The notes under the pieces are model-generated. The model had not been told where the DNA came from, did not search any database, and was given only the letters and a program-made list of their open reading frames with translations. The position numbers and the translations under genes are program-made. Below are positions 2,473 through 45,264 of a DNA stretch of 64,000 bases, one piece after another; the stretch's first letter is position 1, and each line of letters begins with the position of its first letter. Source of the stretch: Sinorhizobium sojae CCBAU 05684 (GTDB taxonomy: Bacteria; Pseudomonadota; Alphaproteobacteria; Rhizobiales; Rhizobiaceae). The stretch is taken from positions 434,001 through 498,000 of the forward strand of contig NZ_CP023067.1 of assembly GCF_002288525.1 (NCBI RefSeq), written 5' to 3'.

Positions 2473-3630
2473 ATGCCGGACGTGACCAGGGAAATGATTC
2501 TTGAAAAGCTGCGGAGCGTTCGCGGCCCCGACATGGAGGGCAATATCGTCGAGCTCGGCCTCGTCTCCGACGTCTTCATTTCGGACGGCAAGGCGTATTT
2601 CTCGATCACCGTGCCGGCAGAGCGGGCGAAGGAACTCGAACCGATGCGCGCCGCCGCCGAGCGGGTGGTGCGCGAAATCCCGGGCGTGAAGGCCGCAATG
2701 GTCGCGCTGACCGCCGACCGCAAGGCGGCACCAAAGGCCGCACCGGTCGAGCGGCCGCGACCGGCGCCCCCGTCCGGACAGCCGCATGGTCAGCGGCCGG
2801 CGGGCGGAACGCCGGCGAAGACCGGGATACCCGGCGTCGGGGCCATCATAGCCGTTGCATCGGGCAAGGGCGGTGTCGGCAAGTCGACGACCTCGGTGAA
2901 CCTCGCCTTGGCGCTCAAGGCGAATGGCCTCAAGGTCGGCCTTCTCGATGCCGATATCTACGGACCGTCGATGCCGCGCCTATTGAAGATTTCCGGCCGG
3001 CCGCAGCAGATCGAGGGCCGGCTCATCCGGCCGATGGAAAACTACGGCCTGAAGGTAATGTCGATGGGTTTCCTCGTCGACGAAGAGGTCGCTATGATCT
3101 GGCGCGGACCGATGATCCAGTCCGCGCTCCTGCAGATGTTGCGCGAAGTCGCCTGGGGCGAACTCGACGTGCTCGTCGTCGACATGCCGCCCGGCACCGG
3201 CGACGCGCAACTGACCATGGCCCAGCAAGTGCCGCTTGCCGGAGCCGTCATCGTCTCGACCCCCCAGGACTTGGCCCTCGTCGATGCCCGCAAGGGACTG
3301 GCCATGTTCCGCAAGGTCGAGGTACCGGTGCTCGGCATCGTCGAGAATATGAGCTATTTCATCGCGCCCGACACCGGCAAGCGCTACGACATTTTCGGCC
3401 ATGGCGGTGCACGCAAGGAAGCCGAACGCATCGGCGTGCCCTTCCTCGGGGAGGTCCCCCTGACTATGGCCATCCGCGAAACCTCCGACGCCGGAACGCC
3501 GCTGGTGGCTTCCGAGCCGGACGGCGAGGTTGCGCGGATCTTCCGCGACATCGCTGCAAAAGCCTGGGACCAGGTTTCGGCGGCACGGCAGGACAAGAGC
3601 CGCGCCATGCCGAACATTGTTTTCGAATAG
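2473..3630 (+). CDS. mrp: Mrp/ApbC-family Fe-S cluster carrier-like P-loop ATPase lacking the CxxC motif
   Basis: A 385-residue protein. Residues 1-80 form an FSCA (DUF59) domain, 85-120 a Pro/Ala-rich linker, and 123-370 a MinD-like ATPase with P-loop GKGGVGKST at 131-139, LLDADIYGPS for the switch region, and VVDMPPGTGD around 235-244. Family members deliver Fe-S clusters to apoproteins in the cytosol. The start is the ATG at 2473 behind GAGAGGG; the longer frame runs into a repeat. Notable: where E. coli Mrp/ApbC has the cluster-bridging CxxC after ENMS, this protein reads ENMSYFIAPDTGKRYDIFGH, with no cysteine. The ATPase appears intact, so the protein is probably functional but cannot bind a bridging cluster in the canonical way. 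Confidence 0.9.
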   Translation: MPDVTREMILEKLRSVRGPDMEGNIVELGLVSDVFISDGKAYFSITVPAERAKELEPMRAAAERVVREIPGVKAAMVALTADRKAAPKAAPVERPRPAPPSGQPHGQRPAGGTPAKTGIPGVGAIIAVASGKGGVGKSTTSVNLALALKANGLKVGLLDADIYGPSMPRLLKISGRPQQIEGRLIRPMENYGLKVMSMGFLVDEEVAMIWRGPMIQSALLQMLREVAWGELDVLVVDMPPGTGDAQLTMAQQVPLAGAVIVSTPQDLALVDARKGLAMFRKVEVPVLGIVENMSYFIAPDTGKRYDIFGHGGARKEAERIGVPFLGEVPLTMAIRETSDAGTPLVASEPDGEVARIFRDIAAKAWDQVSAARQDKSRAMPNIVFE

Positions 3631-4136
3631 CTAGCCCTCCGGCACACGTCGCCGCAACGCCTTGATCGAAACGGAGTTGCGGCTGGGGAACTGCCCGACC
3701 GTGCTGTTTCTCTCCATGGGCGTGCTGCGGCGCAGCAAATTATCATTGATTTTGAGCGAGCATTGTGCCATATGCCATGCCGCTTCCCGCGAGGGCGGCT
3801 GCACGGCACCGGCCGCCGGAGACGTTCTTTACGCCATCCGCCGAGTGCCGCGGCAGCGGTCTGACGGGCGCAACGGCATAGTCAAAGTCCTGTGGCGGCT
3901 GATCGGCGGGATCCCATTTGGTTCGCCGCGCCGGCCGCATCGAAAAGGCGGCTCTATGATCACAGGATATTGCGCCCACGGGAAGGCTGCCGCGCTCGCG
4001 ACGGCGGAACCGCCGGGATATCCACATGCCGCAATGGCTGGGCCGAATGCACGGCATGTCGAGCCGTGCTCCCTTCTGCGATGTTTCCCTTGTTCTTTCG
4101 GTGGAAAGGCTGGCTCTAAGAGCCTGTTGAACGCCC
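3631..4136. other. Non-coding interval between mrp and kup
   Basis: I see no convincing gene here; the open frames lack good ribosome sites and family resemblance. The only clear structure is the near-perfect palindrome GGCTCTAAGAGCC at 4112-4124, ending 12 bases before the kup start, where it could affect ribosome access or serve as an operator. Confidence 0.4.
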
Positions 4137-6038
4137 ATGTCTGAACTGTCTGCCCCTGCCGTGCCGGATTCCGAGAATACGCGTCGCCTGCTCGCATTGG
4201 CGCTCGGCTCCGTCGGCGTCGTCTACGGAGATATCGGTACGAGCCCGCTCTACGCGCTGCGGGAGGCGTTGCGGCCGGTCGCGGGAAACGGCGTTACGGA
4301 GGCGGAGATCATCGGGGTCATTTCGCTGATGATCTGGTCGCTGACGATCATCGTGACGATCAAATACGTGCTGTTCCTGCTGAGGGCCGACAACCAAGGG
4401 GAAGGCGGAACGCTGTCGCTATTGGCTCTCCTGATGAAGACGGCCAATGGTCATGCCCCTATCCTCTTCTTCATGGGGGTTGCGGGGGCGGCGCTCTTCG
4501 TTGGGGACGCAATGATCACCCCGGCGCTTTCGGTTCTCTCGGCCGTCGAGGGATTGAAGCTGGTGACGCCGGCCCTTTCGGATTATGTGATCCCCATTGC
4601 CGTCCTCATCCTGCTCGCCCTCTTTGCCGTCCAGTCCAAGGGGACTGGGGCCGTTTCCAAATTCTTCGGGCCGATCACGCTTGTCTGGTTCCTTTCCATG
4701 GGCGTGGCCGGGCTCATGCACATCGCCGACGACCTGTCGATATTCACGGCCTTGAATCCGCTCTACGCGGTGAGTTTCCTCTTTGGTGAGGGCTATGTCG
4801 GCATCGTCGTTCTCGGCGCCGTATTCCTGACCGTCACCGGGGCCGAAGCGCTCTATGCCGACCTCGGCCATTTCGGTCGGCGCCCGATCCAGCTGGCCTG
4901 GTTCAGCGTGGTCTTTCCGGCGCTGACCTTGAACTATCTCGGGCAGGGGGCCTTTGTCCTCAAGAATCCGGCGGCGATCTCCGATCCGTTCTTCCTGATG
5001 TTTCCGAAATGGGCGCTGCTTCCCATGGTCGTTCTTGCGACGGCGGCGACGATCATTGCCAGCCAGGCAGTGATCACCGGCGCCTTTTCGCTGACGCGCC
5101 AGGCGATCCATCTCGGCTTCCTGCCACGCATGGCGATCTTCCATACGTCCGAGACTCAAACGGGCCAGATCTACCTGCCGAACGTCAATACGCTCTTAAT
5201 GTTCGGCGTCATTGTGCTTGTCTTCGTTTTCGGCTCGTCCGAGTCGTTGGCGACGGCCTACGGCATTTCGGTCACCGGTGCGATGCTGGTCACGAGCTGC
5301 CTTGCATTCGAATTCCTTCGCGCCCGCTGGAACTGGTCCGCTGCCGGCGCCGCAGTCGCGCTGTTGCCGCTCTTCTTGCTGGAGCTCGTCTTTCTCGGCG
5401 CGAACATGCTGAAAGTTCATGACGGAGGCTATGTGCCGATCATGATCGCGGCGACCTTCACCGTCATCATGTGGACCTGGAGGCGCGGCACGGGAATTCT
5501 CCAGGCCAAGACCCGCCGGATAGACGTGCCTCTCGCGAGCTTCATCAAATCCGTCGAACGCGAGAGCGAACATGCGCCAGTAACCGTGCCGGGCACGGCG
5601 ATGTTCCTGACGAGCGATCCGGAGTCAACGCCCGCCGCACTCCTGCACAACATCAAGCACAATCATGTACTGCATCAGCAGAACTTCATCCTCACGATCC
5701 GCACAGCCAACACGCCCAAAATACCAAAAGAACAGCGTGTCAGCGTTCGGCAGCTGTCGGAACGCTTCGCCCTGCTCGAGATGAAGTTCGGTTTCATGGA
5801 GACGCAGAACGTTTCGCAGGCGCTGGGTCTCTTCCGCAAGTCGGGCATCAAGTTCGACATCATGTCTACGTCGTTCTATCTCGGCCGCCGCAAGCTCGTA
5901 CCGGACGCTGAATCCGGCATGCCGCATTGGCAGGACCGGCTGTTCATCGCCCTCGCCAATGCGGCCATCGATCCATCGGACTATTTCCGCCTGCCGACGA
6001 ACCGCGTCGTCGAACTCGGCTCGCACGTGATCATTTGA
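4137..6038 (+). CDS. kup: Kup-type low-affinity potassium transporter
   Basis: A 633-residue inner-membrane protein of the KUP/HAK/KT family, close to the 622 residues of E. coli Kup. The N-terminus carries the family signature [17 protein letters not shown], followed by about twelve hydrophobic segments through residue 450 or so and a cytoplasmic C-terminal domain that ends in a family-typical stretch ([11 protein letters not shown]). It takes up K+ with proton symport. The gene stands alone. No strong Shine-Dalgarno is visible before the ATG at 4137; a 13-base palindrome lies immediately upstream. Sinorhizobium genomes carry more than one kup gene, so no number is assigned. Confidence 0.95.
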
Positions 6039-42528: not shown

Positions 42529-42615
42529 ATGTGTTCGTCACAAAGTGCCGCGGCAAGGGGTCTGTCGTCTTTCCAGAATGGAATGTCGTTTATCGGCACT
42601 TGTGCGGGCTGCTAG
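42529..42615 (+). CDS. Possible 28-residue leader ORF before the cobalamin riboswitch
   Basis: ATG at 42529 with GGAG eight bases upstream, encoding MCSSQSAAARGLSSFQNGMS and ending in TCAGC then TAG, 20 bases before the riboswitch. A leader role is speculation. The rest of 42310-42634 has no gene. Confidence 0.3.
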   Translation: MCSSQSAAARGLSSFQNGMSFIGTCAGC

Positions 42616-42634
42616 ACCGCTTAGATGGGGACAC

Positions 42635-42808
42635 TCGAGGTGCCGCCCTGAGCGGGGCGGAGAATTGGGAAGCCGGTCAAATCCCGGCGCTGCCCCCGCA
42701 ACGGTGGTGGAGTGAGGCCACGGCACCAAGCCACTGGACGTCAATGTCCGGGAAGGCGCCGGGGCGGGTCCTTCGCGGGACGGCTCCAGAGCCCGGAAAC
42801 CAGCCTTG
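42635..42808 (+). promoter_or_regulatory. Cobalamin (B12) riboswitch
   Basis: The aptamer landmarks are in order: GGTGCCG at 42639-42645; GGGAAGCCGGT with AAATCCCGGC and GCTGCCCCCGCAACGGT at 42667-42705; and the B12-box-like GAGCCCGGAAACCAGCC at 42789-42805. It precedes the Rieske oxygenase start by about 120 bases. Downstream, AACAGG and CCTGTT can pair in the expression platform near the start region. In the family, adenosylcobalamin binding normally lowers expression of the downstream genes. Confidence 0.93.
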
Positions 42809-42925
42809 AGCACATCGACCGTAACAGGTTGCGGCGGGCAGCCGGACGGAGCCATGGCGCACGGCCTGTTGCCGTGGGCGGTTCCTGTCCTGCCTCTCCG
42901 AATCATGGCGAACGAGGATATGGGC

Positions 42926-44170
42926 ATGGACATTCAGAGCGAAATGCTGCGCAAGCTGAAGACCCGTCGCGAAGGCTATAGCCTCGACCGGGACTTCTAT
43001 ATCGATCCCGACTATTATCGTCAGGATCTGGAAAACATCTGGTACAAGGATTGGCTTTTCATCGGCCACGATTGCGAGATCCCGCGGGCCGGCAACTATT
43101 TCACGGTGCAGGTCGGCGACTATCCGATCGTCATCGTTCGCGACCGGCAGGGAACGATCCGGGCGCTCCATAATTCCTGCCGCCATCGCGGCTCGCGCGT
43201 CTGCACGCAGCACAAGGGCTCTTCGGCCAAGCTCGTTTGTCCCTACCATCAATGGACCTACGAGCTGGACGGAAAGCTGCTATTCGCGCGGCAGATGCCG
43301 GACGGCTTCGATCTGGCGGCGCACAGCCTGAAGCCGGTGCATTGCGAGACCGTCGGCGGCTACATCTTCATCAGCCTTGCCGACGAGCCGATGAATTTCC
43401 AGCCGTTCCGCGACGTGGCTTCCGGCTACCTTGCGCCGCATCGTATCGGCGAGACGAAGGTCGCCTTCGAAAGCACGATCATCGAGAAGGGCAATTGGAA
43501 GCTCGTCTGGGAGAACAACCGGGAGTGCTACCACTGCGCGGCCAATCATCCCGAGCTGTGCCGCACCTATCCCGAAGCGCCGACGGTGACGGGGGTGCAT
43601 GGCGCGATGAATGATCCGGAGATCAACGCCCATTGGCAAAAATGCGAGGCGGCCGGCCTGCCGAGCGCCTTCAAGATCGGATCGGCCGGGCAGTTCCGCA
43701 TGACACGCATGCCGCTGATCAACGGTGCCGAGAGTTACACCATGTCGGGTCAGAGGGCCGTGGAAAAGCCGCTTTCCTCCGACGCGAGGACAGGCGGCAT
43801 CGGCACATTGCTGCTCTTCCATTATCCGACGACGTGGAACCATATTCTCGGTGACCATGCGATCACCTTCCGCGTGCTGCCCCTCGGCCCCGAAACAACC
43901 CAGGTGACGACCAAGTGGCTCGTCAACAAGGAGGCGGTCGAAGGCGTCGACTATAAGCTTGACGACCTCATCCATGTCTGGACCGAGACCAACGATCAGG
44001 ACCGCCAGATCGTCGAGGAGAACGCCTTCGGCATCCGCTCGCCGGCTTACCAGCCGGGTCCCTATTCGGTCGAGCACGAGGGCGGCGTGATGCAATTCGT
44101 CGAATGGTATTCACGCTACATGCTTGAGCGCCTTGAGCGCGGCGCAACGCCTCTTTCGCGGGTGGCATGA
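42926..44170 (+). CDS. gbcA: Rieske oxygenase, glycine betaine demethylase (GbcA) type
   Basis: 414 residues from the ATG at 42926, eight bases after GAGG; ATGs at 42905 and 42920 and a TTG inside the riboswitch are less likely starts. Rieske ligands are Cys85, His87, Cys105 and His108 (SCRHRGSR and CPYHQW). The mononuclear iron His203 and His208 lie in ENNRECYHCAANHPELC. Family: quaternary-amine demethylases such as GbcA, which oxidise glycine betaine to dimethylglycine and formaldehyde. Stachydrine demethylase-like or another betaine is possible. The gene follows the B12 riboswitch and overlaps the reductase gene by 4 bp (ATGA). Confidence 0.88.
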   Translation: MDIQSEMLRKLKTRREGYSLDRDFYIDPDYYRQDLENIWYKDWLFIGHDCEIPRAGNYFTVQVGDYPIVIVRDRQGTIRALHNSCRHRGSRVCTQHKGSSAKLVCPYHQWTYELDGKLLFARQMPDGFDLAAHSLKPVHCETVGGYIFISLADEPMNFQPFRDVASGYLAPHRIGETKVAFESTIIEKGNWKLVWENNRECYHCAANHPELCRTYPEAPTVTGVHGAMNDPEINAHWQKCEAAGLPSAFKIGSAGQFRMTRMPLINGAESYTMSGQRAVEKPLSSDARTGGIGTLLLFHYPTTWNHILGDHAITFRVLPLGPETTQVTTKWLVNKEAVEGVDYKLDDLIHVWTETNDQDRQIVEENAFGIRSPAYQPGPYSVEHEGGVMQFVEWYSRYMLERLERGATPLSRVA

Positions 44171-45264
44171 TCATGGAAATGGCCCGTTCCTTCCATCATT
44201 TCGACGAGCTCAGTCCCTGGATCGACCGCCAGCACATGCTCGAATGCATCTCGGTGGTGGCCGAGACGGCGGATGTGATGACCTTCACCTTCCGCTCCGA
44301 CAGGCCGGCCTGGTTCCGCTACCTGCCCGGGCAGTTCGTAACTCTCGAACTGCCCGTCGGGGAGGAGCCGGTGATGCGCACCTATACGCTCTCGTCCTCG
44401 CCGTCGCGGCCGCTCTCCGTTTCGATCACCGCCAAGGCGCAACGGGACAGCATCGGCACCCGCTGGATGTTCGACAATCTGAAGCCGGGCATGGTGCTGA
44501 AGGCGTTCGGTCCGCTCGGCGACTTCAGCTTCGTGCGCCATACGGGCGAAAAATATCTCTTTATCTCAGCCGGCTCGGGCATCACGCCGATGATGTCGAT
44601 GATACGCTGGATGGCGGATTGCGCGCCGGATTCCGATGTCACCTTCATTTCCTGCGCGAGGCGCCCGGAGGATCTCTTGTTCAAGCCGGAACTGGAGATC
44701 CTCGCCCGGCAGATGCCGCATCTCAATCTCGGCTTCCTGGTCGAGGGGCACGAGGCGCGTCATGGTTGGCACGGGCTGCGCGGCCGTATCGACGCCACGA
44801 AGCTGCCGCTGCTCGCGCCGGATTTCCTGGACCGAACGGTCTTCTGCTGCGGTCCCGAGCCCTTCATGCGCGGCGTCCGGGAGATGCTCCAGTCCGTCGG
44901 GTTCGACCTGGCCCGCTACCACCAGGAAAGCTTCCAGCCAGCGGCGGCACCCGCTGCCGAAGAACTCGCCATCCGAGCCGGTGCGCCGGGCGCCGAGGCG
45001 GGAACGTCGAAGGTGATTTTCACCATGAGCGGCAAAGAAGTGGAGGCGATCCCGGGCCAGACCATTCTCCAGACCGCGCGTGCCAACGGCGTCCGGATCG
45101 GAGCTGCTTGCGAAGGTGGCATTTGCGGCACATGCCGGGTGTTGAAGATCGCCGGCGAAGTGGACATGAACCACAATGGCGGCATTCTCGACGATGAGGT
45201 CGAAGAGGGCTACATCCTGGCCTGCTGTTCGCGCCCGCGCGGGGACGTGCAAATCGAGGCGTAG
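44167..45264 (+). CDS. gbcB: Ferredoxin reductase component (GbcB type)
   Basis: 365 residues. A flavin domain (RTYTLSSSPSR at 71-81) and NAD domain (SAGSGITPMMSMI at 135-147) are followed by a linker and a 2Fe-2S ferredoxin domain with Cys315, Cys320, Cys323 and Cys353 or 354 (ACEGGICGTC, ILACC). It supplies NAD(P)H electrons to the Rieske oxygenase. The start ATG is inside the stop of gbcA, so translation is coupled. It is followed by a large inverted repeat at 45289. Confidence 0.88.
   Translation: MIMEMARSFHHFDELSPWIDRQHMLECISVVAETADVMTFTFRSDRPAWFRYLPGQFVTLELPVGEEPVMRTYTLSSSPSRPLSVSITAKAQRDSIGTRWMFDNLKPGMVLKAFGPLGDFSFVRHTGEKYLFISAGSGITPMMSMIRWMADCAPDSDVTFISCARRPEDLLFKPELEILARQMPHLNLGFLVEGHEARHGWHGLRGRIDATKLPLLAPDFLDRTVFCCGPEPFMRGVREMLQSVGFDLARYHQESFQPAAAPAAEELAIRAGAPGAEAGTSKVIFTMSGKEVEAIPGQTILQTARANGVRIGAACEGGICGTCRVLKIAGEVDMNHNGGILDDEVEEGYILACCSRPRGDVQIEA

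Follow-up and report, generated by a model that had tools for sequence, protein, structure and literature searches.

A cobalamin riboswitch ahead of a glycine betaine demethylase-type operon in Sinorhizobium sojae co-occurs with homologues of the B12-dependent MtgB and MtgC

Cobalamin (B12) riboswitches repress B12-free isozymes in genomes that also encode a B12-dependent enzyme, the described pairs being metE beside metH and nrdDG beside nrdJ (PMC2211319, PMC545781, PMC3766115). We analyzed a stretch of 64,000 nucleotides from Sinorhizobium sojae CCBAU 05684 (contig NZ_CP023067.1, positions 434,001 to 498,000; hereafter the window), in which a cobalamin riboswitch likewise precedes an operon, here called gbcAB, for a Rieske oxygenase and its reductase, in a genome that also carries homologues of a B12-dependent betaine demethylase. 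We take nrdAB to be a further B12-independent isozyme under such control. The principle is therefore known; what differs from the metE and nrdDG systems is that GbcAB and its proposed partner, MtgBCD, would form a catabolic pair of chemically unrelated enzymes, with oxygen-dependent demethylation on one side and corrinoid methyl transfer on the other.

On the B12-free side, the closest described systems are the GbcAB enzymes of Pseudomonas and Chromohalobacter, which like the proteins encoded here combine a Rieske oxygenase with a flavin/2Fe-2S reductase, and the stachydrine demethylase Stc2 with its fellow proline-betaine enzyme HpbB1, which apart from 3n0q are the nearest solved enzymes to the GbcA of the window (we take structures 3vca and 4qup to be Stc2). 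On the B12-dependent side, a 2025 account proposes that the MtgBCDE set demethylates betaine in Ruegeria and Sinorhizobium meliloti and that MtgBCD pass the betaine methyl groups on; as told there, a bmt mutant had led in 2006 to the inference of a second S. meliloti betaine pathway, which has recently been assigned to MtgBCD (PMC12478193). For S. meliloti the accessible part of that account gives Bhmt and MtgBCDE, and neither a GbcAB homologue nor a riboswitch.

A reading of the window from its sequence only had described a near-complete B12 aptamer from 42635 and had proposed a search with RF00174 around 42600-42930. That search returned the only Rfam match in the window at gathering thresholds, scoring 106.7 bits where the gathering score is 31.5 (expectation value 9.9e-26), and the aptamer proved to be complete (model positions 1-189 of 189), its start lying 14 bases earlier, at 42621 (Table 1). 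Compensatory changes at 18 of the 40 pairs of the aptamer alignment indicate covarying stems around a conserved core. The spacing from the end of the aptamer to gbcA is 103 bases. The coupled oxygenase and reductase read behind the riboswitch are both real genes by their domains (Rieske and Ring_hydroxyl_A in the former; FAD_binding_6, NAD_binding_1 and Fer2 in the latter), which together give the architecture of GbcA systems, a flavin adenine dinucleotide/2Fe-2S reductase coupled to a Rieske/Ring_hydroxyl_A oxygenase.

We consider it likely that the riboswitch-led GbcAB is a B12-independent stand-in for MtgBCD, a B12-dependent betaine demethylase whose genes lie elsewhere in the genome. The comparison of regions upstream of gbcA, which the earlier reading had also proposed, gave a divided answer: among 198 genomes of the family, GbcA is present in 81 (identity of about 65% or above), and an intact riboswitch precedes the gene in 55 of these and not in the remaining 26. 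The presence of the putative partner follows this division, with MtgB in 55 of 55 intact-riboswitch genomes versus 2 of 26 others (Fisher 1.4e-18, a value that ignores relatedness), and MtgC in exactly the same genomes as MtgB (56 of the 80 searched; G000, whose mtgC served as the query, was left out). The riboswitch is thus kept with the B12-dependent partner and missing without it, as expected of a switch over an isozyme, and the remark in the earlier reading that B12 riboswitches control B12-independent alternative enzymes fits this tracking. The leader scoring model was built from 27 motif-found aptamers, and those rows match by construction. Genomes with a weak riboswitch (G526, G594) were counted as negative, and a locus with a 100-bit match that lacks the L13 loop (L105, in G498) as positive.

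Two further sets of genomes show the same distribution. Among named records, some of which are unclassified isolates or metagenome-assembled genomes, MtgB was found in all 25 riboswitch-positive cases and in one of the 24 riboswitch-negative ones, a single weak case being without MtgB; these counts cover 50 of 80 loci, the other 30 positive loci being left out, and they are not independent of the family counts, since the named records partly overlap the sample of 198. For a further 24 genomes of the class, where presence meant at least 60% identity (G208, at 55%, and G104, at 42%, were counted as absent) and the best GbcA-like gene alone was used if a genome has two, MtgB accompanies 11 of 11 positives versus 3 of 13 negatives. 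Three loci from genomes without MtgB (L102, L103, L183) retain recognizable but broken riboswitches, in which the CCCCC loop is altered and the B12 box is gone. On a quick tree of GbcA, which has 30 open forks and long branches in its outer rows, there are at least 17 changes of the riboswitch state. It allowed eleven independent supported contrasts to be drawn, in which MtgB changed in the same direction in 9.3 on average, in the opposed direction in none and showed no difference in 1.7 (median p 0.004). When the family is taken by itself, eight of nine contrasts went the same way, none was opposed and one was without difference (p 0.008).

The leader also carries a candidate for the second half of a kissing interaction. 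Of 97 riboswitch-positive leaders, 94 have a loop pattern, [GC]CGG[CT]GGG[CT], on the 3' side of the aptamer, and the six-pair, L13-like stem beneath it changes on both sides (among the 94, pair 2 is A-U in 47 and G-C in 46, pair 4 C-G in 47 and U-A in 37), so that the corresponding hairpin of the window is a probable L13 kissing hairpin. Energy-based folds of the leader do not contain it and folding z-scores are weak (-1.43 and -1.14 for the leader alone or with the aptamer), which is why this anatomy is read from comparison. Further downstream, a predicted helix covers the ribosome-binding site, GAGGA (42914-42918), and each of its pairs is standard in at least 24 of the 25 Sinorhizobium/Ensifer leaders. 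From the covarying hairpin and this helix, the control of gbcAB is probably translational; transcription termination was rejected as the mode, a terminator scan having found no terminator-like site in the leader. By analogy with its riboswitch class, the aptamer should bind cobalamin and repress.

Table 1. Coordinates of the gbcAB leader and operon within the window
Feature	Position	Strand	Basis and remarks
Probable activator operator, two TGTCGY half-sites 21 bases apart	42563..42589	+	TGTCGY-N15-TGTCGY match
Cobalamin riboswitch aptamer	42621..42822	+	RF00174; own-model score 156.5 bits, the window sequence itself being part of that model
TTAGAT, -10-like hexamer	42621..42626	+	half-sites at -58 and -37 from the hexamer in many loci, with and without riboswitch
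CCCCC within conserved CTGCCCCCGCAACGGT stretch, which we take to be loop L5 kissing L13	42693..42697	+	invariant or nearly so in 27 aligned aptamers
B12 box core GCCACTGG	42730..42737	+	invariant in 27/27 aligned aptamers, which were selected with a motif containing most of this core
Hairpin GGTTGC-GGCGG-GCAGCC, candidate P13/L13 kissing hairpin	42827..42843	+	loop pattern and covarying stem
Predicted helix over the ribosome-binding site	42887-42895 with 42915-42925	+	nine pairs
gbcA-like Rieske oxygenase	42926..44170	+	414 residues; ATG at 42926
gbcB-like reductase	44167..45264	+	365 residues; 4-base overlap with gbcA

Ahead of the aptamer lies the probable operator, whose pattern is matched once in the window against 0.03 expected. 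The TGTCGY pair, taken with a 14-16-base spacer and at most 600 bases upstream of gbcA, occurs at 35 of the 55 family loci with the riboswitch and at 25 of the 26 where it is missing or weak, at 2 of 24 class loci, at none of 16 canonical GbcA loci and in none of 706 background pieces. Since it stands upstream of gbcA with and without the riboswitch, transcriptional control seems to be separate from the riboswitch. The pair resembles what we take to be ArgR/GbdR-type sites of AraC-family regulators. Given the position of the hexamer TTAGAT, the probable transcription start is the 5' end of the aptamer; the hexamer is absent at many other loci, and a promoter scan of the leader gave no call at 42621..42626. 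Elsewhere, at 5041-5088 of locus L053, three TGTCGY half-sites follow one another at 21-base steps (0.01 pairs expected) near the 3' end of an open reading frame at 2987-5194, before an enoyl-CoA hydratase-like and after an acyl-CoA dehydrogenase-like reading frame, as read from the sequences.

Taken together with the pairing of GbcAB and MtgBCD, this anatomy suggests a scheme in which betaine or a near relative would induce the operon through the upstream activator site. When adenosylcobalamin is plentiful it would bind the aptamer, loop L5 would kiss the L13 hairpin and the ribosome-binding site would stay buried, while MtgB and MtgC would demethylate betaine and the methyl group would be passed to folate or methionine. 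When B12 is low, translation of gbcAB would open and GbcAB would use oxygen to take off the methyl group, releasing formaldehyde; what B12 is left would stay available to MetH and other B12 enzymes. That low B12 controls a betaine oxidation is plausible, and it is somewhat more probable than its contrary that the two enzymes form a catabolic isozyme pair chosen by B12 status, sending betaine methyl groups to folate and methionine in plenty and to formaldehyde in scarcity.

Homologues of MtgB and MtgC, the candidate B12-dependent enzyme for the same step, are present in the S. sojae genome. It contains four MTTB-family genes over the cut-off, one of which, the mtgB homologue, adjoins a gene for a B12-binding, MtgC-like protein; both share a 15-kb stretch with a gene for a homocysteine methyltransferase. 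A second MTTB-family gene (C1:425109-426602, L047) lies about 50 kb upstream of gbcA, just outside the window. GbdR is the best match (353.9 bits against a cut-off of 480) of a regulator gene located some 7 kb past the mtg cluster of an S. meliloti record. A record labelled S. meliloti (L009) carries both the riboswitch and the gbcAB operon. This record (CP090106.1, 3.7 Mb, labelled S. meliloti Ak57 pSymB) matches the largest contig of the window genome in its cob, mtg and housekeeping genes, and its label therefore looks wrong.

Several observations weigh against GbcAB as a stand-in for MtgBCD. MtgB is identified here from homology and neighbors, its best NCBIfam model being a trimethylamine methyltransferase (286.9 bits against a cut-off of 525), and MtgC likewise scores below its curated cut-off (206.6 against 370). 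The oxygenase and reductase remain below theirs: the best NCBIfam matches are GbcA (NF058607), at 512.8 bits against 670, and GbcB, at 388.2 against 500, short of equivalog level. The co-occurrence has exceptions in which MtgB is present and the gbcA riboswitch missing, namely G533 and G599 (one genus), Ciceribacter lividus (L201) and, in the class, G150, G092 and G289; searches with filters off revealed no hidden riboswitch at L201 (best 8.1 bits, on the wrong strand) or L139 (G533; 4.7 bits), and a default search found none at L134. The TGTCGY pair was not found at any mtg-cluster promoter, its single match there, with a 14-base spacer, lying inside a formyltransferase-type reading frame, nor was it found in the S. 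meliloti mtg counterpart; a shared activator site for gbcAB and the mtg cluster was rejected. As to the leader, none of the pairs in the helix at the ribosome-binding site changes on both sides among the 25 Sinorhizobium/Ensifer leaders, and in a single-sequence fold the same 5' strand takes up a rival register that covers the start codon and places three pairs at the ribosome-binding site.

The below-cut-off scores also qualify the earlier assignment to a glycine betaine demethylase-type operon, of which the nearest match stands and the family membership does not: the term denotes resemblance. Stc2, the S. meliloti oxygenase encoded next to stc4, is 54% identical to the GbcA of the window, as compared with 45% and 48% for two canonical GbcA over the cut-off; the riboswitch in front is a further difference from the GbcAB of Pseudomonas and Chromohalobacter. 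In a quick tree of 121 sequences, the window protein falls in an 85-row branch (support 98) that contains neither Stc2/HpbB1 nor canonical GbcA and that lies nearer to the former than to the latter, a further point against the pairing with MtgBCD. GbcAB and MtgB could therefore act on different betaines, and it is conceivable, if rather unlikely, that GbcAB is coupled to B12 while acting on another trimethylammonium compound, proline betaine or other, matched by an MtgB paralogue, for which the four MTTB-family genes would offer candidates. Against this, Stc2 and HpbB1 form a separate, 11-row branch (support 99), on which ground orthology of the window GbcA with Stc2 was rejected, and the stc4 and hpb gene neighborhoods were not seen at the window locus. 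Riboswitch-led members occur also on the branch next to canonical GbcA (L073-L076). In Cereibacter azotoformans, the genes next to a riboswitch-led gbcAB encode a MetH-like protein and a homocysteine methyltransferase, and cobalt-transport genes lie close by.

The best clue to the substrate comes from Paracoccus versutus, whose orthologue (69% identical) lies inside the window branch. Its gbcAB stands beside a gene for a GlxA-family regulator (best model GbdR, 188 bits against a cut-off of 480) and has as neighbors folD, purU and fdhA together with genes for electron-transfer flavoprotein, a BCCT transporter and a DAO-FAO_M-GCV_T protein that in our reading belongs to the dimethylglycine/sarcosine dehydrogenase type. 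This set appears fit for the conversion of glycine betaine to glycine. It argues against the alternative substrate and points to glycine betaine, or a near relative, as the probable substrate of GbcAB.

The purpose originally proposed for the switch was different: low B12 would turn on betaine oxidation to supply methyl groups and glycine, the latter for δ-aminolevulinic acid (ALA) and hence the corrin ring. The pathway logic is in its favor, and gbcAB shares its riboswitch class with cobP-type, btuF-type, bluB-type and cbtA genes of the same genome. Such a purpose predicts that the riboswitch is kept wherever B12 metabolism is kept, which is not supported; it is the MtgB/MtgC pair that tracks the riboswitch. 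Judged by other B12 riboswitches and MetH, the genomes without an intact gbcA riboswitch have not abandoned B12, an explanation thereby rejected: all 26 have RF00174 matches over the cut-off, with gbcA-sited ones only in G526 (61 bits) and G594 (56 bits), both weak, 26 of 26 keep other B12 riboswitches, and 24 of 26 keep MetH, while 24 of the 26 are without MtgB/MtgC. Furthermore, GbcAB would release formaldehyde, whereas MtgBCD are proposed to pass methyl groups on (PMC12478193), so that methyl transfer would be given up precisely at low B12. We thus regard corrin-precursor supply as very improbable as the main reason for the riboswitch. Least probable of all is an accident of shared ancestry, in which loss of MtgB and loss of the riboswitch fell in the same lineages by coincidence: close relatives do dominate the counts and the tree is quick, but the independent contrasts agree in 9.3 of 11 on average with none opposed, and MetH does not track the riboswitch (44 of 54 positives versus 24 of 26 negatives, p 0.32, G015 being left out).

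The operon itself has often stayed in place. Six marker neighbors were used (FAD-binding oxidoreductase, threonylcarbamoyl-AMP synthase, DUF6656, GH25, acyl-CoA dehydrogenase and enoyl-CoA hydratase), of which two or more are found at 22 of the 24 negative named loci and at 25 of the 55 positive ones; they are absent from the other 30 positive named loci, mostly Mesorhizobium and relatives, and from L249 and L251. Because these neighbors are largely common to both states, many genomes hold the same gene in the same place, with or without the switch, and the idea that the negatives carry gbcA at a different site is ruled out for most. A MetH match is present in 68 family genomes; among the 13 with it on the contig of gbcA, inspected by hand, 10 have it within 10 kb. 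At three loci (L124, L127 and L121, from G601, G535 and G624), metH, a B12 riboswitch and gbcAB follow in a row on one strand, the MetH domain match ending about 490 bases before gbcA with the riboswitch in between.

We found no account of a B12 riboswitch paired with a betaine demethylase, Rieske or gbcA gene, nor a description of the GbcAB/MtgBCD pair, among the open-access papers searched, most subscription journals being outside the scope of that search. An 'ardX-frdX' operon with a B12 element in alphaproteobacteria was reportedly part of surveys by Vitreschak and by Rodionov in 2003; a literature search for these names returned only an unrelated frdX. If that operon is gbcAB, the riboswitch was noted in 2003, with no function given for the operon, and only the pairing with MtgBCD is new. 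The B12-switched isozyme pairs of the papers cited above make methionine or DNA precursors, and if the stand-in role holds, the rule would extend to the breakdown of a major osmolyte. Betaine use in rhizobia would then be B12-sparing, S. meliloti would have a further betaine route beyond Bmt and MtgBCD, and in rhizobia and their relatives the flow of carbon and methyl groups out of betaine would be predicted to be steered by B12 supply. The absence of a partner enzyme across genomes could likewise be used to read the purpose of a riboswitch.

Within the S. sojae genome (6.09 Mb, three contigs), six RF00174 matches exceed the cut-off. Four of the other five precede genes matching CobU, Peripla_BP_2, Nitroreductase and CbtA, the first three of which we read as cobP, btuF and bluB, with putative B12-transport genes behind btuF. 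The strongest of the genome, at 132.2 bits (L001, C1:1957784-1957997, minus strand), leads a gene for DUF1636, a domain of unknown function; gbcAB appears to be the only riboswitch-led operon without an evident tie to B12 or cobalt supply. The oxygenase is carried at about 85% identity or more by 31 of 32 genus relatives searched, of which 29 have a strong match (>150 bits) to our own riboswitch model and two a weak one (L019, 52 bits; L030, 35 bits). In both of the latter genomes the weak riboswitch stands at the usual gbcAB and a strong one at a second gbcA, about 70% identical (L019 with L170 in G030; L030 with L169 in G013). Two loci, L062 (3189-3362) and L063 (3178-3360), show, next to the riboswitch in front of gbcA, a second and weaker riboswitch match on the other strand.

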